Assembly (NCBI RefSeq): GCF_963675165.1
Contig: NC_087393.1
Coordinates: forward strand, 5,552,202-5,616,201
Length of the DNA: 64,000 nt
Source: Halichondria panicea
Taxonomy: Eukaryota > Porifera > Demospongiae > Suberitida > Halichondriidae
Direction: 5' to 3'
Translations under genes and position numbers: made by a program
Shown: one piece after another, positions 37,137-61,728 of the stretch
Position numbering within the stretch: position 1 is the stretch's first letter
Layout: the number at the start of each line of letters is the position of its first letter
Notes under the pieces: model-generated
Seen by the model: the letters and a program-made list of their open reading frames with translations, nothing else
Database searches by the model: none
Told to the model about the DNA's origin: nothing

Positions 37137-39419
37137 ATGAGCTGTTTAAAGATGCTTTCTTTGGTTGCCATTGTTCTCACAACTCTGCAGCTCTCTTCAG
37201 GTGGGTTATTATACTAGCCAGCATCATGTCATGTACCATGGTCAACTAGAGATCAGCTTATTTACTGCGGTACTTGTTAGCCGGAATGTTATTCCAATTT
37301 AAGAGGTTATGATCGATGAGTTGCGAGAAACAACTGACTTAATTTATTTAGCCTGGTGGTACGTACATGTACCTCAAGGCTGTACGTACTACTGGATCGT
37401 AATAATAGAAACCTAGAATATATAGCTTATAATTATTATAGATATCCAATAATTGTACTCTATAAATAATTACATTGTTGTTACTGACTGCAGCTCAGGA
37501 CTGTGTCCGTGCTAACTCTGATGGAGCGGACAGTTTGCCTAGCTTTTCAGACCCAGGAGGAAATGCCCCTCGAATTGAAGTGAATCCGATCCAAGCCATT
37601 ATTAAAAGCTACGAGTTCCACTGCTGTGGGAAAGTTGGTGGTTGGGCTGCGTATGTGGAGCCTGGTGGTGGTGGTCATACTACTGCGTACTCAATAAAGT
37701 TCCAGATATGGAGGCCTATGGGGAACAACATGTTTATGAAAATTGGAGAGAATTCATTTCCTTCACTAACTCTGGGTGATGCTAGTCTCATTGAAGAAGC
37801 ACTAACCAACAGTGAACAACTTGACTTCCAACAAGGAGATGTAGTCGGCTACTATCTTGAAGACAGCAGCAACCAAAATGGAGGTGTGCAATTTGATACC
37901 GGGTTCACTTCTGAAGAGCTATGGTATGCGACTGGTAACCCTGACCTACAAACTGAGTGCTTACTGGAAGTGGGCAATGCAGGGGACCTCAGCATGTCTG
38001 CAAGCCTTGGACCAATCATCTCAATATCACTTAGTGAGTATAACCCATTGGCTTACATATAACTTTGCACATAAACATCACTATGTCTGTGTGATCAAAT
38101 TACTAGTGTACAGATGTGTATTCCAATGTATAATGAGTTACTGATACTTCCCTCACTATAGCAACCACTATTAATGATAACTGCCCCTCCACCTTCACCT
38201 CGACCATGTTCTGCCCCACTCCCACCTCCATCCCCACTGGACCTGGTACTCCAGTGGTTGTAGATGGTGAGTATGTTGAAAACATGCTCTGCTATAAAAC
38301 AGCCTTGTGTGATTTTGCGTGTGTATTATTATAGTGTTTGATAATAATGAAGGAAATTACCTGCTCATTAGAAGTGTGTCTAAATATATATTGTTTTGCA
38401 GACTGTCTGATGGCAACAGATGGCACCCACCCTCTACCAAACTTTGTCAGACCTGGTGGTGGGGGAGAGCCACGGTTTGAGGTGACACCAGTACAGGTCA
38501 TTATACCTAGCTACCAGTTCGACTGTTACGGACAAATCACCGAGTGGAAAGCATTTGTGGAAAGAAGTGGACGTGGACATTTTGGCGATCAGCCTTATTC
38601 CATTACTTTCCAAGTGTGGAGACCAAGCTCACCCCCTGATGGTCAATACACTATTGTTGGTCTTAATGATTTCTCACCCATTTTACTGGCTGATCCTGAT
38701 GTTGATAATGGCGTTAACCAAGGAATAGTGACTGGGGTACCACTAGAGAGTGAGAGGATTGAGGTCCAACCAGGAGATGTGGTCGGGTTCTATTTTTCAA
38801 GTAGTCGAGATGACGATAATGGTATCCAGTTTGCTAAACCTAGTGACAATGCAAGTCCGTATGCAGCAGAGACTGTTTGGTTTGGTTCTACTCGTTGTTC
38901 TACACTCGACCCACCTTGTGTGTATTCGGCTGGTGATTTCAGCGCCATGACTAACCTTGCTCCACTTATCACTGTGACAGTTAGTAAGTGACAATGTCTG
39001 TTTGTGTCATTCTTCATTCATTCATTCTGCTCAAATATCTATCCTCTCTTACAGTGAGCACTCCGACCATCCCATCCTCCATCCTACTGCCACAAGTCCC
39101 CTCCTCCACTAATGGTGTGTAAAACAGTCACTGTATTGTTCAAATTTGGCAAATTTTGTGAAACTCTTTTCGTGATCAGTATATTAATTAGCTACTGCCC
39201 TTTTAGCAAAATGATTCTTAACTCCCCAATTTTTGTTTTTTGCAGTGAATGCTCAGACCAGTTCATTCGCACCTCCCCCCTCAAGCACACCCCCTGTTGT
39301 CATGCCTCCTGTCTCCACACCCACCGCTGCTGCACCCCCCACTTCAACCCCCACCGTGATCTCTACGCCCCCTGTCTCCACATCCTCTGGTGTGGCTTTA
39401 TCCTCTATTGATTGCGATG
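37137..39419 (+). CDS. Gene I: two-domain extracellular protein or 5' part of a larger RTK
   Basis: Exons: 37137-37200, 37494-38033, 38162-38266, 38402-38983, 39055-39114, 39246-39419. The signal peptide (MSCLKMLSLVAIVLTTLQL) is followed by two copies of the shared ectodomain. Copy 1 has FHCCGKVGGW, FQIWRP and FQQGDVVGYY; copy 2 has FDCYGQITEW, FQVWRP and [10 protein letters not shown]. They are separated by a short Thr/Pro/Cys linker (exon 38162-38266) and followed by two more Pro/Thr linker exons. The last exon ends SSIDCD in phase 1 at a good donor (39420). No membrane helix, kinase or convincing terminal exon is seen after it. It may continue into one of the downstream domain cassettes or into N, or end in an exon I cannot recognise. 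The 3' end is therefore uncertain. Confidence 0.65.
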
Positions 39420-41133
39420 GTGAGTCACACTACTAGTTAAGTCAGCCTTAGTTTAAGGGAGGTACTATACATGCTCGAATAGTGGCCAGGGGATTCCATG
39501 TATTGAGAACTGCCTTACAGCAGGGAACTTTTTACAAAGCATTATTTAGGCCTCTGTTTACTAAGCAACTTTCGCCTTCAGTTTAGGCCTCTATTAGGGC
39601 ATAATTTGAGCATTCGGATGTTTGCACAATTAAGCCAATACTATGCCTCTGGTTACTGTACATTCTTGTCAATGTTTCTTTGATTAGAGATTGCGATATT
39701 GAGTATATGAAGTTGTTTAATGCACAACGCATAGCCGTCAGTACAATCATCACGTCAGTACAATCATCACGCTATCAACTTCTCTTGAGATGCATACAGT
39801 TCTGGTAACTGGATTTATTCTATAGTGTACTTTGTTTGGTGTCAAGTGTACAGCTGTGATACATACAGCTGTGTTTATGGTTGTGGTTGGTGCAGTACAG
39901 TGATAGTGTTAGAGTGTACAATTCGACAACTCACAAGAAACAACTTTCAGTTTGTGTGGATACTATGGACATGCACACTGCAGGCAGTGTATAACATGTG
40001 GGAGCAACAGTAGTAAGAGGAGATGAATCCCAATGTCATAGCTTGCCTTCCATGCATTTAGTGCACTGTGTCAGCATATACATGTACAGTTATTGTTAGT
40101 ACTCTTCCCCCATGCCATTCATGTGATGCTCACTGAAAGCTATACTTGTAGATCTACTTGGTAATAACTTCCTTTGGTGAGCTGAGCACCAACAGCCCCC
40201 ATGCAATCATTTAGTGTATCTATGTCACAGATTGTATTTAGCAAAAGAAATATATAGCTTATAAGGATTTCTCCGTGCAGTTTCTACTTGAATGATTGTG
40301 TCAGCCTATAGCGTGTGTGTATAGGTGGATTTTGATGTTCGACACTATCAGGCTATTGGTACTTTCAACATGACTTCTATTACCGTATCTCTTTGCTCAG
40401 CTACAAGTCTTGATGCTACATTTGCTATATCACACTCTTATCTACTCTTGTCAGTACCTATTGTAACGTTTACAACCTCCGTTGTTGTGTGCAGATGATT
40501 ATGTGTGCTCAACTGCTATGCTTCCTTAATTGTCAGAAGTAACCAACTTTTAGCTTTGTGTACATGTACACCTAGCTCTATGGACATGTACGTATGAATG
40601 CAACCTGTACATTCCTGTATGGTGGTATGGAGCATGTCAACAATGTGTGTGGAAGATCCCTAGTACACACCTTGCATGGTTGTTTGATTGGAGTGTGCAT
40701 GGGTATTAACTATGTGTACTGCTTGATATAAAATTGTAGGGAATCTGTTGCAAGGAAACTGTTATAGTGCACCTCTGTGTACTAGTACTACTCTGAGGCT
40801 ATATAATGATAGGTGTAGAAAATCAAATTCATAGCTAATGGCGGTTGAAATGGCTCCAGTGTATGTATCCAAGAGATCATTTTATGACTGCAGTGATGGT
40901 AAAGCCTCTCTACCAGATTCTGTGATACTTAGAAGTAATGGAAGCCACCACAATTACAGACAGACACATCATAGCACATTCTTTCAGTTAGTGTTTGGTT
41001 TCTTAATCAATTCCCTACTGTTGATATAGTATAGTGCGTTATGATGACTTCTGTCCTTATAAGGCGCATTAGAAGTAGCTAGCTTATAATAGTAGCTATG
41101 ATATTCAGACACTAGCTGTGACAGTCGAACAAG
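39420..41133. other. Non-coding stretch with first copy of the cassette duplication unit
   Basis: No supported gene. From about 40033 the sequence is the first of four related units (others from about 41883, 42858 and 45999), with landmarks such as ATTTAGTGCACTGTGTCAGC, CGACACTATCAGGC and GGACATGTACGTATGAAT in the same order. It ends in the promoter-like region of cassette J. Confidence 0.65.
41055..41064 (+). promoter_or_regulatory. TATA-like / CArG-type motif upstream of cassette J
   Basis: CCTTATAAGG, an exact CC(A/T)6GG match, lies 79 bp before the ATG of J. Related CCTTATAAAG sequences lie at about the same distance before K (45155) and L (47034). It could act as a TATA-like element or a serum-response-factor site. 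Its conserved position suggests each cassette has its own promoter. Confidence 0.4.
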
Positions 41134-41852
41134 ATGTATGCCAAACTTTGCTTGCTGTTTATCTCCTGCTTCCTGTCTTGCTCTCAGACTAATGGTAGGT
41201 GGATGGTAGTGTGTGTGTGTGGATGGGTAAATCATGCAGCAATTCCTTTAAAGCTCAGCAATGTCTTCGTGCAACCAATGGTGACAGAGATCTACCAAGC
41301 TTTGTCAGACGAGGAGGTAGGGGAGAGCCACGGTTCGAGGCTGAGTCAATCCAAGCCATCATCACTAGCTATAGGTTCAACTGCTGTGGAGTGGTGACTC
41401 AATGGAGAGCATTTGTCCACAATAGTAATGATGATCACAGGAATGCCTATGACATCTCCTTCCAAGTGTGGAGACCCAACTCCCCCTCACCCGTGGACAC
41501 TGATGGCTGCTACACTATGCAAGGCACTAACTATTTCCCATCCATTCCACTGGGTGATCCTGACACTGACAGAGGAATAGTGACTGGGATACCACCAGAT
41601 AGTGAGATGATTGAGGTCCAACCAGGAGATGTGGTCGGGTTCTATCTGGAGAATACAATTAATCATGATAATGATGGTATCCAGTTTGCTAGAGATACGA
41701 GTCCGTACACTGATGAGACAGTTTGGTTTGCTACTGGTTCACTGACTCCTCGCCCTGAGGCAGCTTGCATGTATCCTGTCGGCACATCTGGTCTACTCAG
41801 TATCTCCACTAACCTAGCTCCACTCATCACAGCAACTGTGTGTGAGTCATAG
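41134..41852 (+). CDS. Cassette J: signal peptide plus one shared ectodomain (219 aa if read to stop)
   Basis: Exon 1 (41134-41194) encodes the signal peptide MYAKLCLLFISCFLSCSQTN. A 59-bp intron with acceptor TTTAAAG leads to exon 2 from 41254, one copy of the shared domain ([26 protein letters not shown]). The domain ends either at a phase-1 donor (41841/41842, GTGAGT) or, read through, at TAG after only Cys-Glu-Ser (41852). No membrane helix or kinase follows. It is either a secreted single-domain protein or an alternative 5' end for the kinase gene downstream. It is nearly the same as K and L. Confidence 0.7.
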
Positions 41853-43217
41853 CTGTATGGACAATATGGGTATACATTCATGCAATGTCAGCTTCCAAGC
41901 ATTTAGTGCACTGTGTCAGCATATACATGTACAGTTCTTGTTAGTACTCCCCCCATGCCATTCATGTGATGCTCACTGAAAGCTATACTTGTAGATCTAC
42001 TTGGTAATAACTTCCTTTGGTGAGCTGAGCACCAACAGCCCCCATGCAATCATTTAGTGTATCTATGTCACAGATTGTATTTAGCAAAAGAAATATATAG
42101 CTTATAAGGATTTCTCCATGCATTCTACTTGAATGATTGTGTCAGCCTATAGCGTGTGTGTATAGGTGATGATTATTGTTTGATTTTGATGTCATAGTTT
42201 TCGACACTATCAGGCTATAGATACTTTCAACATGACTTCTATTACCGTATCTCTTTGCTCAGCTACAATTCTTGATGCTACATTTGCTATATCACACTCT
42301 TATCTACTCTTGTCAGTACCTATTGTAACGTTTAAGTACGTTGAAACCCCCGTTGTTGTGTGCAGATGATTATGTGTGCTCAACTGCTACGCTTCCTTTA
42401 ATTGTCGAAGTAACCAACTTTCAGCTTTGTGTGTGCATGTACACCTAGCTCTATGGACATGTACGTATGAATGCAACCTGTACATTCCTGTGTGGTGGTA
42501 TGGAGCATGTCAACAATGTGTGTGTGTGGGAGATCCCTAGTACACCGTGCATGGTTGTGGTTGAGTGTGGGTATGTACTGCTTGATATAAATTGTAGGGA
42601 ATCTGTTGCAAGGAAACTGTTATAGTGCACCTCTGTGTACTGCTGGGGATCACAGTACTACTCTGAAGCTATATAATGATAGGTGTACAAAATCAGATTC
42701 ATAGCTAATGGCGGTTGAAATGGCTCCATGGAGTGTATCCAAGAGATTGTCTTATATCCAGTGCATAATGGTGAAGCCTCTCTACCAGACTCTGTGATAC
42801 TTAGAAGCCACCATGTAGCTGTATGGCATGGGCGTACAAATGTCATTTAATGCATTCCAATGTCGTAGCTTCCATACATTTAGTGCACTGTATGTTAGCA
42901 TAATTATACATGTATACAGTTCTGTTGTTAGTACTTCCCATGCCATTCTAACTTGGTAATAACTTCCTTTGGTGAGCTGAGCCCCAAAAGCCCCCAATCT
43001 GTGTATAAATGTCACAGATTGTAAGTACTATTAAATTTTTAGCAAAAGAAATAACAACAATAGTTTGTTAACTTGTAGGCTCAGTTTCTACTTAGACTCT
43101 TGCATGATTGTATAAGTCAACCATATAACTGTGGTTTTCTTTGATAGGTGTATTTGTTTGTTGTTGTTGTTGTTTTGATAGTTTCGACACTATCAGGATA
43201 TACGATTTCTATTACCG

Positions 43218-43634
43218 CAGGGGCGTAGCCAAGGGGGGTGCTAGGGGTGCTCGAGCACCCCCAACCAGTCTGAGTCAAGTATACAAATCACAGAGAAATG
43301 TATCTGATTATCCAGCTGAGCACCCCTTCTCTTCCAGATCTTGCTGCTGTTAGCTAGCTAGTATAGCAAGGAAAACGATTCAGTCTCTAAACTGTGAGGT
43401 ATTTTGGCTTAAATCTATAAACTAGTTCTCTTTTGTGATCGTGGCCAGCTTCTCTATGTAAATAAACGTTCAGCCACGCCCAACTTGGCAGATAAGTTAA
43501 TTATGACGCCATTAATAAGAGGTGTGGCTTCCGGTCAACCAAATTTCGGCGCTGCGTGGCTAAAAATCGGGCGCTTTGCGCCCTCTTTCATCTGTGATAG
43601 CACCCCTTTCTCCAAAATCCTGGCTACGCCCCTG
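43218..43634. mobile_element. hAT-like MITE, 417 bp
   Basis: The terminal inverted repeats CAGGGGCGTAGCCA (left) and TGGCTACGCCCCTG (right) are perfect over 14 bp. Paralogous units at 40381, 42243 and about 46410 show the uninterrupted site ATTACCGTATCTCTTTG (or a one-base variant), while here TACCG and TACCA flank the element, so a target duplication of about 5 bp is visible. There is no transposase frame. The termini resemble those of the hAT element at 59153-61728. Confidence 0.85.
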
Positions 43635-44121
43635 TACCATATCTCTTTGTTCAGCTACAAGTCTTGATGCTACATTTGCTATATTTATCATACTCTTATC
43701 TCTCAGTACCTATATTGATTATTGTAAACGTTATGCAACCCTGTATGTGTTGGTGTGGTGTGCAGTTTAATGTGAGTGCGTAATTTGAAAACTCAACTGC
43801 TGTGCTTTTTTTTTTATTGTCAGAAGTAACCAACTTTCAGCTTTGTGTACATGTACACCTAGCTCTATGGACATGTACGTATGAATACAGCCTGTACATT
43901 CCTGTATGGTGGTATGGAGCATGTCAACAATGTGTGTGTGGAAGATCAACCTATAGTACACCTTATATAGATAATGTTTGCCATAAATACTGCAATCTGA
44001 TTGGTTAGAGGAAGTGTTCTAGAAAATCATGTACTTACTTAGACAATCAGACAACACTTATACAATCATGTAGCAAAGATTAGATAGAGCATTCAAGCTA
44101 GATACTCATGGTTGCTATGAT

Positions 44122-44249
44122 CTAGACACTGTTTAGGTGATTTAGAAGTCCTCAGGGCTAGTAGAACCCTCACTGCGTTTGGAATACTACAACCTTGTAC
44201 TAACCTTTGGGCTTCTAAATCATGTAGAAACTTCCTAAACAGTGTCTAA
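44122..44249. repeat. Foldback repeat
   Basis: TAGACACTGTTTAGG...TTTAGAAG at the left is repeated inversely as CTTCTAAATCAT...CCTAAACAGTGTCTA at the right, with an interior of about 60 bp. It is probably a small non-autonomous element inserted in the third duplication unit, since the other units lack it. Confidence 0.65.
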
Positions 44250-45234
44250 CTATTATGTACATGGCTATTGTGGTTGATAGCATTGAGTGGATATTAATTG
44301 TTTATAGGGAGTCAATAATTCTGTTAAACTGTTATAGTGTACTCTCTTCTAGTCTTCTCTTGCTTGCTTTGTCTGAGGCTATAATGATCAAAATCAGATT
44401 CATAGCTAACAGTGGTTGAAATGGTTCCAGTGTATCCAAGAGATTGTCTTATGGCCAGTGATGGTGAAACCTCTCTATCAGAATCTGTGATACCAGGGAG
44501 GAAGTAATGGAAGCCACCACCATTTCGGACAGATGTATCACAATTATAAGCACATCCTTTCGTTAGTGTTTTGTTTCAGAATCAATTTCATACTACTGTT
44601 ATAGTAGTGTTAGTGTTTGTGATGACTTCATAATAATAGTCCTTATATAAAGGCGCATGATCATTAGATAAAGTAGCTAGCTATTACCGTATAGCAGGTA
44701 ATTTTCGTGGGGGCAAAATGTTCGTGGATTTCGTGGTTAGCGACCTTACCTACCTTTACCTGCAGTGCAAGCAGAAAATATTACAAACGAAATGTCTCAA
44801 TTGCGTGCATTGATGTCATTAATGTGTGTACTGCATGGAAACTGTTATAGTGCACGTCTCTTCTAGTCTGCACTTGCTAAGTATTGTATACTGCTAATTA
44901 TTCATTAGATGAACACCATTTCATTAGTGTATTGTGTCAGTGTTGACTAATGGTTGTCAGTCAGACTATAACATGTATGCTTTTCTTTCGGTGAAAATCA
45001 GGTTGTTGGTTTTACATTCAATATGACTTCCTGGCATACAATGTTTTTGCAGATGATAGATTTGTATAGATTGTGGGCATGTTCTCAGTAAACCATTAGG
45101 TATGCTCGCCCATGCATAAATTAATTTATCATTGTTAATTCATATAATGATGGCCCTTATAAAGATGGTCATGAGATTCTAAAATCTCAAAGCAGTAAGT
45201 TATAGTAGAGCTATAGCTGTGACAGTCAAACAAG

Positions 45235-45953
45235 ATGTATGCCAAACTTTGCTTGCTGTTTATCTCCTGCTTCCTGTCTTGCTCTCTGGCTAATGGTAGG
45301 TGGATGGTAGTGTGTGTGTGGATGAGTAAATCATGTACAGCAATTCCTTTAAAGCTCAGCAATGTCTTCGTGCAACCAATGGTAACAGAGATCTACCAAA
45401 CTTTGTCAGACCAGGAGGTGGGGGAGAGCCACAGTTTAGAGACAACCCAATCCAGGCCATCATCACTAGCTACAGGTTCGACTGCTGTGGAGTGGTCACT
45501 GAGTGGAGAGCCTTTGTGGAGGGCAGTGGTGATAATCGACGTAATGCATACACCATCTCCTTCCAAGTGTGGAGACCCAACTCCCCCTCACCCATGGACA
45601 CTGATGGCTGCTACACTATGCAAGGCAATAACCATTTCTCACCCATTCCACTGGCTGATCGCGACACTGATGACAGAGGAATAGTGACTGGGATACCACT
45701 AGAGAATGAGAGGGTTGAGGTCCAACCAGGAGATGTGGTTGGGTTCTATCTTGAGAGTAGTGACAATGGTGATGATGGTATCCAGTTTGCTAGAGATATG
45801 AGTCCTTACACTGATGAGAGAGTTTGGTTTGCTACTGATTCACTGACTTCTCGCCCTGAGGCAACTTGCATGTATCCTGTCGGCACATCTGGTCTACTCA
45901 GTTCCTCCACTAACCTAGCTCCACTCATCACAGCAACTGTTTGTAAGTCATAG
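45235..45953 (+). CDS. Cassette K: signal peptide plus one shared ectodomain (219 aa if read to stop)
   Basis: Exon 1 (45235-45295) encodes MYAKLCLLFISCFLSCSLAN; exon 2 starts at 45355. The domain has [16 protein letters not shown] and [10 protein letters not shown]. The exon ends at a phase-1 donor (45942/45943, GTAAGT) or reads into TAG after Cys-Lys-Ser (45953). Structure and alternatives are as for J. The promoter-like CCCTTATAAAG is 80 bp upstream of the ATG. Confidence 0.7.
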
Positions 45954-47117
45954 CTGTATTATCAAGATGGGTACACAAATGCATCCCATGCAATGTCAGC
46001 TTCCAAGCATTTAGTGCACTGTGTCAGCATATACATGTACAGTTCTTGTTAGTACTCCCCCCATGCCATTCATGTGATGCTCACTGAAAGCTATACTTGT
46101 AGATCTACTTGGTAGTAACTTCCTTTGGTGAGCTGAGCACCAACAGCCCCCAATCAGCTAGTGTATACCTAATATAATTTTATGTCGCAGTATTAACTGT
46201 TTAGCAAAAGAAATAACATACTTATAACAACAGTCAGTGTTCTTTTGTTAACTTAATTAGGCTTTCTCCAGTTTATGCTTAGACTCTGCATGATTGTAAG
46301 TCAGCCTATATAGCGTGTGGTGTGGTACGGTACATGATAATTGTTGCGTTTGTTTGATGTATAGTTTTCAACACTATCAGGCTATAGATACTTTCAACAT
46401 AACTTCTATTACCATATCTTTTTGCTCAACTACAAGTTTTGATGCTACATTTGCTATATCACACTCTTATCTACTCTTGTCAGTACCTATTGTAACCTTT
46501 AAGTACGTTGCAACCCCTGTTGTTGTGTGCAGATGATTGTGTGTGGGCAACTGCTATGCTTCCTTTAATTGTCAGAAGTAACCAACTTTCAGCTTTGTGT
46601 GCATGTACACCTAGCTGTATGGACATGTACGTATGAATACAACCTGTACATTCCTGTATGGTGGTATGGAGCATGTCAACAATGTGTGTGTGGGAGATCC
46701 CTATAGTACACCGTGCATGGCTGTTGTGGTTGAGTGTGGGTATTAATTATGAGTACTGCTTGATATAAAATTGTAGGGAATCTGTTGCAAATAATTCTAG
46801 GAAACTGTTATAGTACACTTCTCCTTCTATTGTATACTGCTGGGGATCACAGTACTACTCTAAGGCTATATAATGATAGGTGTAAAAAATCAAATTTATA
46901 GCTATAATGGCGGTTGAAGTGGCTCCAGTGTATGTATCCAAGAGATCATCTTATGACCGGTGATGGTGAAGCCTCTCTATCAGAATCTGTGATATATATA
47001 CTGTTGATAGTAGTGCGTTATGATGACTTCTGTCCTTATAAAGAAATGATTATTAGAAGTAGCTAGCTTATAATAGTAGCTATGATATTCAGACACTAGC
47101 TGTGACAGTCGAACAAG
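45954..47117. other. Non-coding spacer, fourth duplication unit
   Basis: From about 45999 this 1.16-kb spacer repeats the order of landmarks seen in the spacers before J and K, ending in the CCTTATAAAG and GACAGTCGAACAAG sequences before the ATG of L. No gene is seen. Confidence 0.6.
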
Positions 47118-47958
47118 ATGTATGCCAAACTTTGCTTGCTGTTTATCTCCTGCTTCCTGTCTTTCTTTGTGGCTAATGGTAGGTGGATGGTAGTGTGTGT
47201 GGATGGGTAAATCATGCAGCAATTCCTTTAAAGCTCAGCAATGTCTTCGTGCAACCAATGGTAACAGAGATCTACCAAACTTTGTCAGACCAGGAGGTGG
47301 GAAAGAGCCACGGTTTGAAGATAATCCAATCCAAGCCATCATCACTAGCTATAAGTTCGACTGTTGTGGAGTGGTCACTGAGTGGACAGCCTTAGTGGAG
47401 AAAAATGATGAACCTGATGCATACACCATCTCCTTCCAAGTGTGGAGACCCAACTCCCCCTCACCCGTGGACACTGATGGCTGCTATACTATGCAAGGCA
47501 CTAATGATTTCTCACCCATTTCACTGGGTGATCGTGACACTGCCAGAGGAATAGTGACTGGGGTACCACAAGTGAGTGAGAGGATTGAGGTCCAACCAGG
47601 AGATGTGGTCGGGTTCTATCTGGAGAGTAGTGACAGTAGTGATGATGGTATCCAGTTTGCTGGAAATGGAGACAACTCTAGTCCGTACACTGATGAGACA
47701 GTTTGGTTTGCTACTGGTTCACTGAGTTCTCGCTCTGAGGCAACTTGCATGTATCCTGTCGGCACATCTGGTCTACTCAGTTCCTCCACTAACCTAGCTC
47801 CACTCATCACAGCAGCTGTGTGTGAGTCGTTTGTGAAAACCATGGATATACAATGTCATGTGGTCCATGTTAAGTGTACAATTAGCCAAATAGCTAGATT
47901 TCCAATGCGCATTCTCTCCCAAATAAGCAAAAACCCACTTCCTGTGTTTTTGGCTTAA
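47118..47958 (+). CDS. Cassette L: signal peptide plus one shared ectodomain (261 aa if read to stop)
   Basis: Exon 1 (47118-47178) encodes MYAKLCLLFISCFLSFFVAN; exon 2 starts at 47234 with [16 protein letters not shown] and [11 protein letters not shown] phase-1 GTGAGT donor lies at 47821/47822. Without splicing, the frame runs 45 residues further to TAA at 47958 through sequence that does not resemble the family, so splicing at the donor seems more likely. It sits 64 bp before the signal exon of gene N. Confidence 0.65.
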
Positions 47959-48021
47959 ATATCCCACAACAATTGGCTAGCTCAGATATCATGTCAGTAG
48001 CTCATAGGAAAACGAACAACC

Positions 48022-51000
48022 ATGCAAACAAGTAATCTAGTTCTGTGTCTTAGTTTCTTATGTCTGACATCAAATGGTGAGTTGAGTTGAAAATAAGGCT
48101 TCTAGCTATATAAGCTGTAGCATTTCTAGTTATAGGTGCTCCATGCAATGCAGCTCAGTTCCTAAGCAGTCTCCTAATATTCTTGCAACTACCATTATAC
48201 CTTATAGCCCAAGAATGTCTTCTGGCTAGTGATGGAACCAGATCTCTACCAAACTTTGTCAGACCAGGAGGTAGGGAAGAGCCACGGTTTGAAGATAATC
48301 CAATCCAAGCCATCATCACTAGCTATAAGTTCAACTGTTGTGGAGTAGTCACTGAGTGGAGAGCCTTTGTGGAGGGAAGTGGTCGTGGGCACGTTGCTGA
48401 TCAGCCCTACACCATCTCCTTCCAAGTGTGGAGACCCAACTCCCCCTCACCCGTGGACACTGATGGCTGCTACACTATGCAAGGCACTAACCATTTCTCA
48501 CCCATTCCACTGGCTGATAGAATAGTGACTGGGGTACCACCAGATAGTGAGAGGATTGAGGTCCAACCAGGAGATGTGGTCGGGTTCTATCTTAAGAGTA
48601 GTAGAGAAGATGATGATGGTATTCAGTTTGCTAGAGATCAAGATAATGAATCAGAATATGATAGTGAATCAGTTTGGTACGCTACTGGTGATGTCACTAG
48701 TGGTGGTCAAACTTGTCTATTTCCAGTCGGCACAGGAAGAACTCTCAGTTTGTTTACTAACTTAGCTCCACTCATCACTGCAACTGTTTGTGAGTCAAAA
48801 ATCAATCACAAATCCCTCAAAAGATGCGCTCATGCAATTTGTCATTTTGTATTAAAGCAAAACTTAACATGTGATTTCTTTCCTCCTCTACAGCATCCAT
48901 GGCTTGCCCGGTGTCATCAACTGCCACAACTTCCACAATGATGGTGCAACGAACTCCCCTGGGTACTCCCGCCCCCACCCCCACTCCTTCCCCCTCCACC
49001 ACCTCCACTTCTGACTCCACTTCCGACTCTACCTCCACCACTGACTCCACCTCCACCACCACCACTGAGTCCACCTCCGAGCCCCCTCCTGACACTAATG
49101 CTGCTACAACCACACAAGCTCCCCCTGCTCAGACTAGTGGAAACAGTGGCCTAATCGTAGGGTTTGTGGTGGCTCTACTAGTCATTATTGTAATTGCTGT
49201 GTCGGCCATTGTGATTGTTGTGGTCATCATGAAGAGGAGGCAGAGCAAGCAAGGCAGTATGGACACCACCGCATGGTCCAACCCAAGCTATGAAGATCGT
49301 GAGTTGCTACATTGATTAGTGCTTTGTTAACATTACATATTTACTATTCAACTTTACTGTTAATTGGCTCTAGGCCGTGATATTCATTTCACACAACAGT
49401 TGGTACTAACTATTGTGAAGCTCTAGCAGTAAGCACTAAAGCCCCTCTCTATAGTGATAGTGCAAAGCCCCTCTCTCTAGTGCAAGCCTGGCCTGTTATT
49501 AACTTTCCCATGCATGCTATTTGCATGCTATCATTTCCTGGCACAATTTTCAAACAACCTTGGCAACGTCAATCACAACAGTGAATGCCTCTATCTGCCT
49601 GCATGCAAGAGCCTAGTGTTGCCATTGGTAATGACTATACAATCTCACACGCTCACACACACAGCTGCGAACATTACCAAACCAACAAAGAAATCGAAGC
49701 AGAAGCCTAAAGCCAAGCCACTGGTGCTCAACGTGAATGGAGACAACTCAGTGTACGATGTTATAGGGGGTGACTATGAGGGAATCCCCCCAGCACTGGA
49801 CTACACCTACCCCACACCCTCACCCACTGTGAAATATAATCGTAAATCGGAAGAAGTGTTTGTTTCTGATGGAAAGGGAGGAGCAGCGTATCACGATCAG
49901 GGACCCGATGTTGGGAATGTGTATGACTATTGTGGCAATGGATCAGTTTATCACACGTTGGAGTCCAGTGGTCAGTACGAGGACCAGGAGGAGTCTAATC
50001 AATACGAGGCTCCAACTCTACCAAAGTTTAGGGTAAGTACTTGGCTTTGTACAGACATTCTTGTAATTGACACCAAATACATGTAAGCTGGATTCCCTTT
50101 GAAGCATTGTGTTGTCACCATCTTTAGCTGCACTGTTAGTAGGTGGTAATTGTCTCTAATCAAATGTTGTGTTCTAGTGAACACATTGCTAATTGTGTCA
50201 TTCAATCTCATCTGTTCCGTTTATCAGAAGAGCACTCTCAAGAACAGTCCATTTGATGGCCATGGCACCTACGTACCCACACTGGTGAGCAGCTGTACCT
50301 AGCAAAGCCACTGGAAATACGTGTTTATGGAAATGTGTTTAAAAATATGTGTACTGATATCTTGATTCCACATTCTGCACACATGTGTTAATGTATCTAC
50401 CCCCATGCATGCATGCAGGCACAGCGCCAGATCATGGGGGCTCACTATGAGTTGCAGGAAGGAACTGAAAGTGTAAGCCTCGATGATAATATTAGTGTAA
50501 CTGTACCAGTGATTGAGACAATTACTCACGGTGTTATGTGTTGACTGTGTGTGTGTGATTGTTGTGATGGTCTCCTTGGGTGACCTAATGTGTAGTGTGG
50601 GAGACAGTCTGCACTTCTGGCAGACACGGGTAGTAACATAATGAAACACAACATCTGCAGTGAAATAGCACGATTGTGATCTTCATTGTGTAGTTGACAT
50701 GCCACTAATTTGTATTTCTATGATCTACAGACACAAACATACAACACTCTCAACTTCTTTGTGGAGGATCAGGTATTCTGGGCCCCTGCTGACACAGCTA
50801 ATGACCTCTATCAGCAACTGGCTAGTAAGAAGTACCGGGAGATCCCTCGCACGGAAGTCACGTGAGTCCAGTCCCTCTATTTCTGTATAGTAATTATTGT
50901 TATGTATTTATTATTTGATTACTCATTCCCCCATCCACACATATACGTATTTAGTATCCTGGAGCAGTTGGGCTCTGGTCAGTTTGGACAAGTGTGTAAG

Positions 51001-53408
51001 GGCATATGGTCCATCTCTGGCAACTCTCTACAGCTGGCTGTAAAGACGCTCAAACCAGACGCTCCCTCAGGAGACAAAGTCAAGTTCCTCCAGGAGGCGG
51101 CCATCATGGGCCAGTTCCTGCATCCCAACGTGGTCAAGCTGTACGGAGTGGTCACTGTGGGGGAACCAGTGAGTGGGGCTGGCATGATAGTCGTGTATTC
51201 AACCACATGTTTTGAAAGGCCGTAACTTTAGTTATGATGGTCCAATGTCAGATTTTCTGAAAGCCTGAAGTGAGATTTTTCAAATGATGGGTTAAAATCA
51301 AAGGTCTATTTTGGGGGTGATTTCGGCAAAAAACCATGGTCTATAGGTGGGGGAAAAATCCAAAATTTGATCCGATTATAAAATCTGAGCTGAACATACC
51401 TTCTGAAAGAGCTCGCTGAGAGCTTTCAGAAAAGCATAAATTTTTTGAAATTGGACCAACTAATCAAAAGTTATGGGCAATTAGCTATAGAGTGTCCAGA
51501 CTTATTGTATGATGTCATGCATGCGATAAGTCCAACTATCCGTATATGAGGTTGTTCTGTTTACTACTGCAATAGTGGCCCCATCCCGTGTGGTCTGGCC
51601 AAGCACTGTGGTTGAGTGCATAATGACCAGTAGCTACATATGGCCACCTATTGTGTGGGACTACACTATGTTTAAGTAGCTAGGCCCATATAACAACACA
51701 CTTTAGTTCTGTCTTCTTAAAATAGGCTTCGTCCATTGCCAACAACTAGTGTAAGTAAGAAGCTGTGTATGGCCCACACACCACTATGTTTGGTTCTCTA
51801 TTTGTATTCATTCTATTGTCCATGTGTTGCATGGTATGAGTGAGTGTTGCTTGTGTACAGGTGATGATATGCCTCGAGATTATGTCTAATGGAGATCTCA
51901 GAAGTTACCTCAGAAGCATTGATGCTGGGTAAGTGAGTGTTCATCATTATTGTGGTCAACCTCTAGCCAGATATCCCATAGCTCAACCTGTGTTTCAATA
52001 CGCCACCTCTTTATTGCAACCACTGTGTTGGTCTACCCAACGATTATCCCGGCTATGTAGTAGGGTTCACTGTACTTATACGCATTATTGTAGTCTTATG
52101 TCACCCCATAATTATAGTCTTGTTTAGTAAATCACTATAGCTATACATTGTAATGTCTCTCCATTCAGTTCCAGCTCTTCAAGAAGCTCGCACGATCTTC
52201 AACTCTTGTTTCTGAGATTTGCCAAGGAGATAGCTGCTGGGATGGAGTATCTCTCAACCAAAGCGTTTGTGCATCGTGACCTAGCTGCCAGGAATGTGCT
52301 CATCAATGAAGCTCTGTCATGCAAGGTACACACATTAGTACAAACAACTGTTATTGGCAGCTCTAAACCTGTTGCTAAAAAACAACCGTTGCTAGTAGCA
52401 ACAGTTAAGTGGTTTTGGCTACCGCCTGCTATTCTGCATTGAGCAACTATAGAGCATATTGTGTAGAGATAACATAAACACTGTATTATGCTGACAGTGC
52501 AATCGCATACTGTGTACACATTTATTGCTAGCACTTCAATTATTTCATATTGCCGGGATAGATTGGAGACTTTGGAATGGCCAGAGATCTGATGGATGAT
52601 ACCTACTACACTTCAAAGGGAGGCAAGATCCCTGTCAAGTGGACTGCACCAGAGGTACATAGCCTCTCATATAATGAACCTGCCAAAAGTGGTCCATAGC
52701 TACTGTTAAGTCTTAGTGCACCATTGCTTAAGATAATTGAACGCCCAGAAGAGAAGAAAAGTTGTATTTATTAACTAGCTCTTAGGAAGCCCTATCAGAT
52801 AGTGTCTTATGATCAGCATTTTTATGTATTTAACTACCGGTATATCCATACACTCATGCAGGCTCTCTTGTACAAGAAGTACTCTACAGACAGTGATGTA
52901 TGGAGCTACGCAATGGTGCTGTTTGAGATATGGTCTGTTGGTCAGAAACCATTCTCCATGCATACCAACAACGAGGTCCTCAAGCTCATACAGAGTGGGC
53001 ACCTCCAGGCCCCACCCCCGGGATGCCCCCGGGAAATATACAAACTCATGGTCGACTGCTGGTAAGTGGAGTAGTAAACACATTTTTACTTTTAGTTTTT
53101 GTAAATAATCAGCCAACATAAATTATGATTGAGTACGTATGTCAAGACTTGGTAAAAAGTACAGCCATGTAGATTTCAGTGTAGATTGTCTGTTTTGTCA
53201 TTTCCATAGGAACCCTGAACATCAGTACCGACCTAAGTTTGGTGAGATCAGCTCTCAGCTCCGTGCCCCTGCCACTAAGCTGCTCTACTGGTCTGCTCAA
53301 GACAGCAAGCTCTCAGAAGGGGCGGCTGTACTCGGAGCATCGCTGGAGGAGGGATACAAGCTGCACGACGATTTGAGAGAGAAATACAAACAATATGAAT
53401 CCATTTGA
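48022..53408 (+). CDS. RTK gene N, complete, 860 aa; only membrane/kinase exons downstream of the cassettes
   Basis: Exons: 48022-48076, 48208-48789, 48894-49298, 49665-50032, 50228-50284, 50419-50472, 50731-50861, 50955-51168, 51861-51928, 52169-52325, 52562-52654, 52862-53061, 53210-53408. Signal peptide [18 protein letters not shown], one shared ectodomain ([26 protein letters not shown]), a long Ser/Thr/Pro stalk (about 215-295) and a membrane helix at about 299-325 ([20 protein letters not shown]). NPSY lies just after the helix, then SVYDVI, YHTLES, QYEAP and HYELQ. The juxtamembrane exon reads [14 protein letters not shown]...KKYREI. The kinase has [33 protein letters not shown] and WTAPE. 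The SDVW and following exons are fused (52862-53061). The domain exon ends in phase 1, so the constant part from 48894 could also accept J, K, L or I. Confidence 0.86.
51219..51478. mobile_element. Putative MITE in gene N intron
   Basis: In the 692-bp intron of N, GCCGTAACTTTAGTTATGAT..GGTCCAA at the left is matched inversely by TTGGACCAACTAATCAAAAGTTATGGGC at the right. The interior has the dispersed motif AAATGATGGGTTAAAATCAA. Related pieces occur in introns of D (13555-13640), G (about 25850-25930) and H (about 34655-34730). Boundaries and target duplication are not secure. Confidence 0.5.
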
Positions 53409-53924
53409 ACACTTATACATAAGTGCTTTGTTTATCTGTAATATAATATGTTTAACCGTCATTGCACTGTTGCCTTGTATATAGACCCCACACCTACTTA
53501 ACTTATGCTCACTTTTTATCTCACACAAATTCTCATGCTTATAATAATATTATTGTGCGGCATTATCGAGTCAAAGTGAACAGAGTTCCCAGCTACAAAA
53601 TAAAATGAAAGCACCACTGCCGCACGGGTGCATGCTGATGCCTCGGTGGAGGTGTCAAAGTTACATAAGCTAATGCCTCGGTGGAGGTGTCAAAGCTGTA
53701 CTAAGTCTTAGCTTGAATGAATGCACCGCAGGTGCTGATGCCTTGGTGGAGATGCCAAAGCTACATAACATAAAGCTACTATAAATAGCTTTTATGCACA
53801 TGTGATAAATAATTTAATTTTTTTGCTGCATGCAAAAACTCAGAGAGTGGGTAATGATCGACCATGATTGTTGTTAAAAACGATCGATGCCAAAAGTTCA
53901 AGGCATTAGCAGAGCCTAGCCTAG

Positions 53925-54060
53925 CCTCGATCCCAGGCCGCACTTCACTTATAGGGAGTGGCCAGAGCCGAGTTTTCGCTTTTATAACGGTTATAAAAGC
54001 GAAAACTCGATCCAGGCCGCACTTCCCACTCCCTAAGTGAAGTGCGGCCTGGGATCGAGG
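53925..54060. repeat. Nested palindrome (foldback element)
   Basis: Outer arms (53925-53960 and 54027-54060) carry CCTCGATCCCAGGCCGCACT and continuation as inverse copies, differing by a 2-nt indel. The centre (53970-54008) is a second, perfect 19-bp inverted repeat around GAGTTTTCGCTTTTATAAC with a one-base loop. A third, direct copy of the arm core (CGATCCAGGCCGCACTTCC) lies between them. Confidence 0.9.
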
Positions 54061-54344
54061 CCACCTCTTGCAGCTACCAATAGAGCGTTCTACTTCTAGT
54101 GCAGAGCTAACTACTAAGTAGAGTAGCAACACTCGGTAAACAAGTTTGGCTACGTGCTCTTCTGAAAAGGCTGCAATGGCATTCCAAGTAAGCAAAACTA
54201 GGCATAACTCGAGAACGAAGCATTATTTTGCAAATCCACGAATTAAAATCCAAGTAAACATGACTAGAAGCCTATAGAAGCTCTTACTTGCACTTGATTC
54301 ATCCTTGAGCAGCTGTAACAGTCTACACACACAGACACACAAAC

Positions 54345-56290: not shown

Positions 56291-58949
56291 ATGGAAACTG
56301 GAATCAAAGGTATTGCTACATACTTGGTTGACTATAAGTATGTACTCTAGTCTACAAGTTTTAAACCCTTAGTGTAAGTCTTATGTATGTGCTGGTGTAT
56401 ATACTTGGCACACTACTCATTACATGTCATTGAATGTGTGTCCTTTGCATGCAGTAGAGACATCAAGGCGATGCACACCGCTGGGCCAAAGATGTCAGCT
56501 CCATCTCAACCTCTTCATTGTTGCCTTCATGCAACTACTACTGGCCATCATATTTTCCACTCCTATCTCATCATTCTACCTCTTTGTGACAAGTCAACCT
56601 CCATCCTCTAACAACACTGACGAGATTGTGAGTGGCTCAGTTGATTGTTCGAAACCTCCCTCAGGCTCCCTGTCACACACACCACACTCACCACACTCAC
56701 CACCCACACCACACTCACCACCCTCACCCACCACCCACACACATGCAGGTGGATTGGCAGGGCCTGGGGCAATCAGACACCTTCTACTCCTGGGTCATAA
56801 CACTCCTTGGAATAGCCATCCTCTCCACTTCTCTGGTTCTAATGTGTCTACCATTCCTTTCATTTTTTCGAGTTTTGATGGTGTTCAATTTTCTCATCCT
56901 TATCACAAGTGGTCTCACCTATGCATTAGCGTTCAGACCCTGGGTCATCTTGGCTTCATATTGTATTCGTGGTGTTGGATTCAGCATGTCCGAAGTGTTG
57001 GTGATAGGTTACATCAGTGTCACTCCCAGATTACTGCCTCGGGTGGACAACAAGAGAAGAATAAAATCTACGTTCAGTGTCAAGGACAGATATCTTGCAA
57101 TTACCCTCATGTTTCGAGCAATTGGGTGGCCCATAGGACTAGGTTAGTTGAAATGTACGGTGACTGTACACTATAGTTAGTGTTTTCAAATACACTCTTC
57201 AAAGTTGCACAAGTTTCTAAATTGCAATTTCATGATTGCAGGTATTGCAGCGCTGATGGCACAGTACAGGGACACAGTGGACCAGTTTCGATGGCCAGGG
57301 TGGGCTAACGCAACAGTTAGTATTCTGTATGCATTTATCTTCTTCATCACGTTTCGTAAAGTGGAGAGTGGTACTGCCAAAGCTGGAGAAGGGAGATCTA
57401 CTACAACATGGTGTCACTGTCAGTGTGTGTTCTTCAAGGACCATCTTTCTACAGACAAAATGAAGTCAACGCTCAAGAAAATACGACTAAGAAATGTCTT
57501 AGTAAGTATCCCTAAACACAACGAAGCATAATCCATAAAGAAAATTGACAGGCTATATATACCACGTACATGTGCTGTGCGTCCTAGTGTAATTAACCAT
57601 GCAGCTATAGAAATACAATTTTCAATGTCTTCTTTCCCAATGTATAGGTGTGCGTGTACCTGGCTTTGTCTGGGCACCTAATGACGTCCACTGGCTCTAT
57701 CCTCGGCACCCTCGTACCTCCCATCCTTAGTGACCACTTTGGATTTGATATTGACTTCATCTCTTACTTTACACTCGGTGTCTTGGCTACTTCATTCGTT
57801 GGTGCTATAATACTGTGAGAACAATGGAGCTGATCTAATAGACTAGCGTGCATGTTCGTCTGATGCAGTATAACACCATACTTGTCTAAGACATTGTCTT
57901 CCATGTTGTGCTAGAATGTATGCACCTGAATGCACAATAATTGCTCTATTTTCCCTACATAATTTATATAGGATTGTCCTAAAATGCCTGAGGGTGAACA
58001 ATCGTTATTTGTTTGCTGTGGTACTTGCAGCTAGTATATGCGGGACTGTTCTGGCATCTGATTGGCAGGCTATTGGCGAGGATCCATGTACATTGTCAGG
58101 TTTCAATTCAAGCCAGCATTTTGAACCACCTGAAGCTCTGTCTGAGCTAAGAGATGTGTGCTTGTCTCAGAATGGAGATTGTTACTGGAACCAAGATTCA
58201 GAGCTGACAGGAACTTATTGCTCTCTTTGTCGGCCAATATGTCGCTCAACTTCCATGACCATCAACCTTGCTCAGTTCTGTGTAGCAGTGGTCCTGATTC
58301 ACCTGTCCGGACTAATTGGTTGGACGGCCATTTTGGGAGTGGCCACAGACTACACCCCTCATCACCTTCGGGTGAGTACACTAGCTTGTCTAATTCACCT
58401 GGTTCCCATGCACCGGGCCTCATAATGTGTACTTACAATGATGTTTGTCAAATTACTGGTTTTTCTGTAGAGTGTGGTTGTTGCACTAATGTTCATGATG
58501 GATGGTGCTTCATGGCTGCTAACACCTCTGTGGAGTAAGTTGCATGACAATGCTAATAATTATAAAGATTAGTGGCAAGTCTCTTTAGTGATATGTCTTA
58601 GTGGTGTTCCCTTAATGGCGTCCACCATGGAAGCTGGGCATAATAAAATTAGTATGCAGCCAGTCCCAAATCCTAGCCCTCAATATAATGCAAGTTTCAA
58701 CTCATGTTAAATAACAAGCCCACCTAATTATCTAACATACAACCACTGTTGAGAAAGCACTGATGTCGATGCTCCCGTATTCTAACACTACCCCCTCACA
58801 CACATGCAGGTATCTCCATATATAACCTGGTAGGCAGACGGACGTTTGCACCAATGTCAGTGTGGAGTGGGATGCAGCTGGTCAGTCTCATCGGACTACT
58901 GCTGCTCTACAAACTGTTGGGACCTATCAAGAAGCCACAAATGACTTAA
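56291..58949 (+). CDS. Gene O: 12-helix MFS-like transporter, 538 aa
   Basis: Exons: 56291-56309, 56455-56627, 56749-57142, 57242-57501, 57648-57814, 57972-58371, 58471-58534, 58810-58949. Hydropathy by eye gives about 12 membrane segments, split six and six by a long charged loop (exon 57242-57501, rich in Lys/Arg), the layout of major facilitator superfamily carriers. A loop before the tenth helix has six cysteines (EDPC, DVC, GDC, TYC, SLC, PIC), as in carriers with a folded extracellular loop such as the SLCO group. I do not recognise a family-specific signature, so the substrate is unknown. The 7-codon first exon is supported because its ATG and donor are kept in copy Q. The protein ends GPIKKPQMT. 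A degenerate transposon end lies just upstream of the ATG. Confidence 0.72.
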
Positions 58950-59152: not shown

Positions 59153-61728
59153 CATAGGGGTAGGAAGATGTTTTACCTAAGGGGGGCAAACAATATGTTA
59201 TACCAATATCACTGAGACACAATTTAAAATTCTCCAAAATATCTTTGTCTTCTAGAATTAACAGAAATAAAATCCTTCGCTATAGCTAATAAATCTATCC
59301 TGTCTGTCCTATGTTTGTGTACATAAAGCAAAAAAAGATTGTTAAGTCTACATTCAGTCATTGTGCTCCTCAAGAATGTTTTGAGCCTTCGCAGTGCTGA
59401 AAACGATCTTTCGGCTGAAGCTGTTGTTACAGGGAAGGTAAAGTACAATGAGAGTAGCATAAACACTTCAGACAGCATTTTCTTGTAAATATGATTGCTA
59501 TTAATCGCTTGAGCTATAGTCCTTATATTTGTCACAGTTGTTACTTGTGGAGTAGCTTGCTTAACCATATCAGCAACTAGTGCAAGATGTGTACACAAAC
59601 GTTTCAAATCAAAGTCCTTCTCAAGGAAACTTTTTACGGAGGGAGGAAGGATCTCAATATCATATGGTCTTCCATTTGCAGCATTCAGCAGGAGTATTTC
59701 AATTTCTTTTATAATTTTCATATCTTTCTGATCAAATCTTCTATCGATCTCACCTCCAGCAAGTTCTAGTACTTCATAATACGCACGTCTAAACCTTGAC
59801 TTAGGGTCTGTGTATTGGTGTGCAGTACTTCCAGTATTATACCTCTTGGGTAATTTCCTTTGGCGAGGCAATTTGGGCTCTTCAGTGAAATGCTTGCTTT
59901 CCTCACATACTGAACTATAAAACTGATCAAATTTAGATTCAGTCCGAAGAGCTTTTAGGTGGGATGCAAGTAGACTAGCACCTGTAGTTGCTTCCTGAAT
60001 TGTTAGGTCCACTGCTTGCAAGTTAATGGACAACTGCTCAGAAGCAGAAAATACCAAGTAAGCAAGTTTCAGTGCAAAGTACGTGTCAAAGCATTCCATA
60101 CGCCCAAGTAGACCGTTGGCTTTTGCTGCGTACTCATCATGGCCTTTCTGAATAATTTCCAAAGCATCAATCAACACCTGATAATTTCTCAAGATAGAAT
60201 TTATAGCAGTATGACGAACAGTCCAGCGTGTGGGACAAAGCACTCTCAGTGATGGAGTACTCCCATCTCCTTGTAGAGCAATATCTTTACGGAGTGAATC
60301 GAACAAGGATAGCCGCTTGGGAGAAAAGCGTATGAGCTGTACAAGATTGTATATGAAATCCATTACATTCCTGACCAGTTCAGATTTGTTTGTAACATCT
60401 TTGAGGACGAGATTAAGATTATGAGCTAAGCAATGAACATACAATGCCTCAGGAACTTCAGATTTCATTAGGGCTTGTACACCATTTCTTATCCCACTCA
60501 TTGTAGAAGCACCGTCGTATGCTTGACCTCGTATTGAACACAAAGGTAAGGTACATCTAATTAGAATGTCCTTGATAGCAGAGAAAACAGTACAGGCTTT
60601 AGTATCAGGTAATTGAAACAATCCTAATCCATCTTCATGAACATTTAGATCTTCATCAATCCAGCGAACAGAGAGACACATTTGCTCTTGGTGGGATACG
60701 TCAGTGGCTTCATCAGCTAAGATTGAATAAAAACGACTCTCTTTCACATGTGACAGTATATCTCTAAGTACAAACTGCCCCATTTTGGTAATAATTTCAT
60801 TCACAATCTCGGGCGAAAGATAATCACGCTGTTTAAGCCATCTCAGCATTTTTTTATCTTCTTCAGCCCTAAGTAGAAGAAGTTGGGCTAGATTTCCTTC
60901 AGGATCATCACCGTCATGTTTTCCACGAAGAGGCAATCCTTGTCTTACAAGGAACTTAATGGTAGAGAGTAGTTTCATAAGCATTGTTCTATGATAAAGT
61001 TGATCAGTTGCAAGCTGTGTGCTCAGCAGAGTGTCTACCCTCACACCTGTAGATCTCTTCAGCACAACTTCTTTATGCATGTTACTATCTTCGTGAGCAC
61101 GAAACCTGTCTATGGCTTTCTTAAAATTGTTGAAACCATCTTCCACGAATGCTGGCTGATACTTCCTTGTAGGAGTCACACTCAGCAAATTGTTTGCCTT
61201 AGCAGCTCTGCACAAATAGCAAAATATTTTCCTATTTTCTGAACACACAGTTATCCATGGGTAGAGCTCATACCATCTCGTCAAAATAGGTCTCTCATCC
61301 TTCACAGCTGGTAGCTGAGGTTGAAAAGGAATGTTAATGTCTTTACACCCCTGGCAATTGCAAGCAGCTTGGGTACTCGAAGCTTCAGACTCTATGGGTA
61401 TAAAACATTCTCATTAAATCATGTCACTACATAGCTGTAAGGCTAGAGAGCATTGTCAATTTGAGCAAGCTGTTTAAGCTAGATAGCTACATTTAAGCTT
61501 ATACTGGGGCTATAATTCACTTACCTGCTTGATCCAAAGAAGCACTGGTAGTACTACTGTCAGACAGACTTGAAAAAGTAATCTTGGCCTGATACATTGT
61601 TATTTTTGCCACATGCTCACAATATTTTTTCAATTAGAGAGCAGTGCTGGCTAAGGGGGGCGAAAAAGCAAAATATTTGGCTGAGGGGGGCAACTGCCCC
61701 CCTTGCCCCCCTGGTTCCTACGCCTATG
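59153..61728 (-). mobile_element. hAT-family DNA transposon, ~2.58 kb, apparently complete
   Basis: The left terminus CATAGGGGTAGGAA is matched inversely by TTCCTACGCCTATG on the right (one mismatch in 14). GAAAC occurs directly outside both ends, suggesting a short target duplication, though not the 8 bp of typical hAT. The element carries an intact transposase gene on the minus strand, plus GGGGGGCAA-rich subterminal stretches at both ends. It sits between two duplicated transporter genes and ends 7 bp before the start codon of the second. Confidence 0.8.
59224..61597 (-). CDS. hAT transposase (TTF-type zinc finger, hAT dimerisation domain), 746 aa
   Basis: Two exons on the minus strand: 61597-61525 and 61391-59224, joined in phase 1 across a 133-bp GT–AG intron. 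Exon 1 encodes MYQAKITFSSLSDSSTTSAS. The N-terminal third has Cys/His spacing of a TTF-type finger (WITVCSENRKIFCYLC ... NNFKKAIDRFRAHEDSNMH). The middle has RNase H-like core motifs (ILADEATDVS, AYDGASTMSG). The C-terminus has the hAT dimerisation signature (ASAERSFSALRRLKTFL). No stop or frameshift interrupts it, so the copy may be young and could still encode active enzyme. Related host ZMYM/TTF proteins exist in animals, but the terminal repeats argue for a transposon. Confidence 0.88.

Follow-up and report, generated by a model that had tools for sequence, protein, structure and literature searches.

Can one receptor tyrosine kinase (RTK) gene draw its extracellular domain from a row of units lying upstream of it? 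The question is raised by a 64,000-nucleotide stretch of the genome of the sponge Halichondria panicea (contig NC_087393.1, here C17:5552202-5616201 and called the window), which is occupied by a tandem series of RTK genes; genome searches covered 131.5 Mb in 39 contigs. Three cassettes, J, K and L, lie on the forward strand after gene I and before gene N, and N's are the only kinase exons found beyond 37 kb in the window (gene letters outside I to N are our own labels, given in order). The anatomy of the array, its splice phase, the missing transmembrane (TM) segment, selection on the frames and the array's descent from a truncated unit copied in tandem could be established. Beyond this, we tentatively propose that the RTK's ectodomain would be chosen among tandem 5′ cassettes, each bringing a putative promoter, a signal peptide and a domain to a shared stalk, membrane helix and kinase. 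Under the same tentative proposal the array would be a diversity locus built on a kinase, resembling the sDscam genes of chelicerates, with cassettes related to a kinase-less receptor captured in front of the kinase.

Gene N is a complete receptor in its own right. Its signal-peptide exon (48022-48076), which is unlike that of the cassettes, lies 200 bp past the donor of L and is followed by an ectodomain exon (48208-48789; donor GTGAGT at 48790), an exon for a Ser/Thr/Pro stalk and the membrane helix (48894-49298), whose acceptor is among the strongest scored, and the juxtamembrane and tyrosine kinase exons (49665-53408, stop at 53406-53408). Two kinase exons match PF07714 (E 3.9e-17 and 2e-18), the top PDB matches of the N-lobe exon are EGF and Eph receptors, and the catalytic motifs HRDLAARN and DFG are both present. 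With a signal peptide, a single TM segment and a tyrosine kinase domain carrying its catalytic motifs, N is by definition an RTK.

Each cassette consists of one signal-peptide exon and one ectodomain exon of ∼195 residues: 41134-41194 and 41254-41841 in J (donor GTGAGT at 41842), 45235-45295 and 45355-45942 in K (donor GTAAGT at 45943), and 47118-47178 and 47234-47821 in L (donor GTGAGT at 47822). Gene I (37137-39419) is longer, with a signal-peptide exon (37137-37200), domain I1 (37494-38033), a linker (38162-38266), domain I2 (38402-38983) and two Pro/Thr-rich linker exons (39055-39114 and 39246-39419), the last ending at a GTGAGT donor at 39420. After the signal-peptide exons, the listed exons of I, J, K, L and N all have lengths divisible by three and run from phase 1 to phase 1. 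Reading on past the donor meets a stop within four codons in J and K (..VCES*, ..VCKS*) and within six in I (..GESHY*); in L the first stop comes only at 47958. An earlier note on this DNA had given these coordinates, phases and donors, together with a motif about 80 bp before J, K and L, and direct reading and a script bore them out. Its statement that J, K and L have neither membrane helix nor kinase before N also held: the kinase exons are N's alone, and no open reading frame (ORF) resembling a membrane helix was found at the threshold used in the intervals I to J (1715 bp), J to K (3394 bp), K to L (1176 bp) or L to N (201 bp). A paralogue of gene I (in L018) has a third linker that runs on into a TM segment, which gene I does not.

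How unusual is the missing anchor? The N domain as query gave 48 genome matches, all on C17, some of them pieces of one domain. In a cluster at 4.60-4.65 Mb, 0.95 Mb away, all ten domain units examined have their own stalk/TM exon, although in four of them either the helix (C4631 and C4643) or the domain frame (C4604 and C4608) is broken, and matches to a Tyr-containing tail follow most of them. A further survey took in 14 units with ∼1.5 kb of downstream sequence, the weaker of the 48 matches lying outside it. A plausible TM segment was seen in nine (L015, L018, L021, L023, L025, L028, L030, L031 and L032), was doubtful in two (L026, L027) and was not found within that distance in three (L019, L020 and L024), L024 being the first domain of L018's two-domain gene. 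L015, a distant gene, combines a J-type signal peptide with its own TM exon. J, K, L and I thus appear to stand out by lacking a TM exon of their own, and since units of the family mostly carry one, J, K and L most likely lost theirs. The 4.6 Mb cluster (C17:4603001-4653000; L033-L037) can be described as ten kinase-less receptor units with tails rich in N-x-A-Y motifs; at 4638297 a signal-peptide exon is followed by a TM exon with no domain between. One kinase exon as query gave 67 genome matches at E <= 0.001, and on C17 it was found only at 5.498-5.619 Mb, so the other ectodomain clusters seem to be without this kinase.

Partial copies are also found closer by. Upstream of the window, at C17:5528557-5540614 (L038, L039), three units of ectodomain and TM precede a single kinase; by predicted exon joins, units 1 and 2 seem to end in a Tyr-rich tail of their own (..NICYGS..NVAYGSTVR*), and an orphan copy of the last kinase exon precedes each of units 2 and 3. 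These units are apparently kinase-less sister receptors that arose by tandem duplication. Gene F (window 19807-21715) likewise encodes an ectodomain, a TM segment and a Tyr-rich tail with a stop but no kinase; over 1.4 kb it shares 93% identity with the 5′ half of G, the complete RTK next downstream, and its tail resembles those of L038. Duplication of a 5′ half before an RTK is therefore recurrent in this cluster, and what is special to J, K and L among such copies is the absent membrane anchor.

The ectodomain itself matches no named family convincingly. Pfam gave no match for the segments of N, L, I1, H, D and F and a sub-threshold one for B; J, K and I2, outside that scan, are family members at 45-74% identity. 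NCBIfam returned one weak match, for one of 12 domains, a PDB sequence search found no relative at E <= 1, and no relative was confirmed in viral contigs. A first structure model was poor (predicted local distance difference test, pLDDT, 46.9); a second was moderate (pLDDT 64.9, predicted template modelling score 0.72) and nearly all beta. Foldseek found no match to the latter at E <= 0.001, a PHR domain coming nearest with 1.3e-3, so the fold is left without assignment.

How did the array arise? Self-comparison gives the order as an upstream module of ∼1.1 kb, signal-peptide exon, domain exon, ∼50 bp and the next module. The module is complete before J (40047-41133), nearly so ahead of L and in the J-K interval, and present only in pieces before K. 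A genome search that skips very common words found eight matches to it, all inside C17:5592248-5599318. The match between J and K continues beyond the donor and reaches the next upstream module (85% over 1800 bp); the truncation therefore preceded their copying. L remains similar to the two only until just past the donor. J, K and L would be three functional copies of a 3′-truncated receptor-gene unit, made up of 5′ flank, signal peptide and ectodomain, placed upstream of N. Between J and K, decayed partial copies of the module (window 42858-44682) lie without signal-peptide or domain exons and are interrupted by an inverted-repeat element (by eye, ∼43219-43634).

The source of the truncated unit is tentatively a kinase-less receptor rather than N. 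A codon tree sets N apart from J, K and L, which group with the kinase-less 4.6 Mb units; the branches between them have UFBoot values of 91, 82 and 81. This placement is to be read with the distant outgroup in mind and with the kinase-less C4643 branching nearly as deep as N. Mean synonymous distances of J, K and L are 0.27-0.30 to the 4.6 Mb cluster and 0.32-0.37 to N. On both counts a kinase-less receptor looks like the nearer relative of the cassettes, which would then not be copies of N.

Does each cassette have a promoter? A TATA-like CCTTATAA stands at 41055 in the module of J, 79 bp ahead of the ATG; in K and L it occurs at a distance of 80 and 84 bp. J and L share this flank by recent duplication (4.4% difference). 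The flank of K beyond about -21 has no BLAST match to J's, yet the motif keeps the same spacing, which is modest evidence for a promoter. A promoter for each cassette is thus inferred from the motif and the duplicated flank, which K shares in part.

Are the cassettes maintained, or are they relics that unequal crossing-over left behind and that make no product? The domain exons differ pairwise by 8.6-11.9%, and no stop or frameshift occurs in the three copies. All their indels are multiples of three (exceptions 0/2, 0/3 and 0/3 per pair), whereas in the post-donor stretch of J and K, which differs by 9.9%, 13 of 18 indels are not multiples of three. Of the 42 columns that are constant throughout 11 other members of the family, 4 vary in J, K and L, against 50/149 of the remaining columns (Fisher P 0.0017). 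With a star tree and K taken as ancestor, a simple neutral simulation expected a mean of 14.9 changes at the 42 core columns (P 0.001) and left all frames free of stops in only 5% of runs. These frames have been kept under selection since copying, and because J and K were copied after the truncation, it was on truncated units that selection acted. The ratio of nonsynonymous to synonymous change (dN/dS) between copies is near 1 (0.75, 1.18 and 0.91), so constraint on the core accompanies fast change elsewhere; by the moderate structure model, 38/100 positions outside predicted strands have changed and 15/86 inside (P 0.002). That ratio and the decayed module copies between J and K are what the relic explanation has in its favour; with the intact frames and a core conserved beyond neutral expectation, we consider it very improbable.

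If the units are maintained, where do they splice? In the proposed mechanism, transcription would start in each cassette's own 5′ flank, where promoter activity is presumed, and the signal-peptide and domain exons would be joined into an alternative 5′ end. The phase-1 donor would then be spliced to the stalk/TM acceptor of N at 48894, swapping the ectodomain (mode 1), or to a later domain exon or N's acceptor at 48208, adding a domain (mode 2). One kinase would be offered several ectodomains, which might serve to recognise self or a range of ligands. The earlier note had the donors joining 48894 in frame, and the phase does fit; exclusive use of 48894 is not supported, because for the donors of J, K, L and I the later domain acceptors (41254, 45355, 47234 and 48208) are equally in frame.

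Splice-site scores bear on the choice. Among all GTs, the donors of J, K and L lie at percentiles 98.2, 98.4 and 98.2, and N's own, a member of the training set, at 99.1. Among AGs, 48894 ranks at the top, 48208 at 97.6 and the cassette acceptors at 57.4. The acceptor matrix is rough, one training acceptor scoring -10.4 when left out, and the weakness of the cassette acceptors is partly ancestral, three 4.6 Mb units also having TTTAAAG. Modes 1 and 2 are favoured by donors scoring close to N's, a very strong acceptor at 48894 and weak cassette acceptors, and also by the position of L, whose read-through stop at 47958 is only 63 bp before the ATG of N. The shortest of six other measurable stop-to-ATG gaps in the cluster is 227 bp; two pairs have 1.2 and 1.4 kb, and two without a picked signal-peptide start were excluded. 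L is therefore the best candidate among the cassettes for splicing into N. For L, mode 2 is preferred over mode 1, since an intron from L to 48208 would be 386 bp, normal for gene N, and the acceptor there is decent. That cassettes splice into N in one mode or the other strikes us as an even proposition; the exclusive junction to 48894 as the main mode is possible but rather doubtful.

Three other lines were set aside. The 200 bp between L and N is not decisive, because four other genes start 227-331 bp past the previous stop; the 63 bp gap is the better argument. No AATAAA was found within 500 bp of the read-through stop in I, J, K or L, but six of eight complete kinase genes also have none within 500 bp of their stop, and poly(A) signals were therefore discarded as a sign of separate 3′ ends. 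Donor conservation among J, K and L is uninformative, divergence being too small.

The same weak cassette acceptors (57.4 percentile) also bear on one long receptor starting from I, in which domains I1, I2, J, K, L and N would be joined to the TM segment and kinase of N. All joins would be in frame, gene I ends in a linker whose donor is tied for the best score, and gene D of the same cluster (window 10187-12128), with three ectodomain copies before one TM and kinase, is itself a multi-domain RTK. Such a product would skip or rarely use the inner signal-peptide exons, yet these are intact, and signal-peptide exon plus intron differ by only 2.5-4.3% among J, K and L, as against 8.6-11.9% for the domain exon. 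The difference is significant in both pairs tested, J-K and J-L, the latter test also counting 114 aligned upstream bases. Weak acceptors and preserved leaders together leave the long receptor improbable overall.

Several points weigh against splicing into N, and some of them favour separate genes for J, K and L (and I), whose donors would go unused and whose products would be small ectodomain proteins, secreted as soluble or decoy receptors. Introns from J and I to 48894 would measure 7.1 and 9.5 kb, whereas the longest intron within N has 0.69 kb. Every acceptor has a nearer donor, so the cassette donors must compete; as they were inherited and are still young, the fact that they are conserved does not prove that they are used. 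The stops four to six codons past the donor in J, K and I would yield tidy secreted proteins, with signal peptide and no TM segment, from frames that are under selection. Elsewhere in the cluster, partial copies seem to have turned into kinase-less genes in their own right, and dN/dS between J, K and L is not low. Secretion leaves unexplained why good donors are retained at the exon ends, and L has no near stop and sits just 63 bp from the ATG of N. We regard separate secreted products as plausible, though still short of probable.

The proposed choice of ectodomain has its closest published layout in chelicerate sDscam, a likeness of layout and not of membership. In the sections of PMC4835542 used here, sDscam 5′ cassettes have two exons (generally in sDscam alpha) or four, each cassette behind its own promoter; they encode the N-terminal domain or domains and are spliced to shared exons with the TM segment, and the promoter is part of the duplication unit. 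The same sections report exons skipped or repeated in frame, 249 of at least 264 distinct junctions detected linking neighbours inside one cassette, non-canonical isoforms making up an estimated 10-40% in most genes, and some combined cassettes yielding extra immunoglobulin domains (PMC4835542). Such mixed junctions parallel the mixture of modes 1 and 2 to be considered here. J, K and L are likewise tandem two-exon cassettes, a leader and one domain, skippable in frame before shared TM exons. Where sDscam has a promoter per cassette, this array has a candidate for one in a TATA-like motif at matched spacing and a duplicated flank that K shares in part. Differences remain: sDscam proteins are immunoglobulin cell-adhesion molecules with no kinase; sDscam transcripts are proven, whereas J, K, L and N are known here from DNA alone; and there are only three cassettes, before an N that has a complete unit of its own. 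No immunoglobulin or fibronectin homology to Dscam was found by Pfam (N, L and I1) or by the PDB sequence search (E <= 1).

Other systems are more distant. UGT1A-type loci join alternative first parts, each with its own promoter, to common 3′ exons, as might happen here; their first exons are not known to have an acceptor and their products are enzymes, unlike the receptor-type domain exons of J, K and L, which have one. FGFR IIIb/IIIc are RTKs with exchangeable ectodomain parts, encoded by mutually exclusive internal exons that have neither promoter nor signal peptide of their own, whereas J, K and L do have a signal peptide. A variable exon of the clustered protocadherins is not known to have an acceptor and so would not be included internally. 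The earlier note had likened the array to these genes, which in vertebrates also set tandem variable 5′ units before one shared 3′ region. The comparison fails in detail: J, K and L have two exons, no TM segment was found, the domain exon has an AG acceptor of the right phase, though weak, and Pfam found no cadherin repeat in the N, L and I1 domains. In the parts of PMC4660814 used here, the protocadherin variable exon is described as encoding ectodomain, TM segment and proximal cytoplasm.

If the proposal is true, cells of a single animal could, by their choice of promoter, couple one kinase to different ectodomains, and tandem 5′ cassettes would have arisen independently in a cell-surface receptor once more, in addition to protocadherins and sDscam. 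They would, to our knowledge, be the first known in an RTK; searches of open-licence literature showed no prior description of this for an RTK. Should the products be secreted instead, the locus would still illustrate how soluble or kinase-less partners come out of partial copying among clustered kinase receptors.

Eight kinase genes with an N-lobe exon make up the tandem series in the window, and six (B, C, D, G, H and N) have a match to the shared ectodomain profile upstream within it. Gene E has no such match there, and the nearest one preceding gene A falls outside the window. About 500 bp past the stop of N lies a self-complementary inverted repeat of 138 bp (window 53924-54061, ∼80% paired). 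Two gene copies at window 56373-58538 and 61813-63950, near-identical by eye in the ORF list and without a Pfam match in segments 56632-57147 and 57874-58425, flank an open hAT-type transposase-like ORF of 728 codons on the reverse strand (window 59224-61410) with DUF4371 and Dimer_Tnp_hAT.

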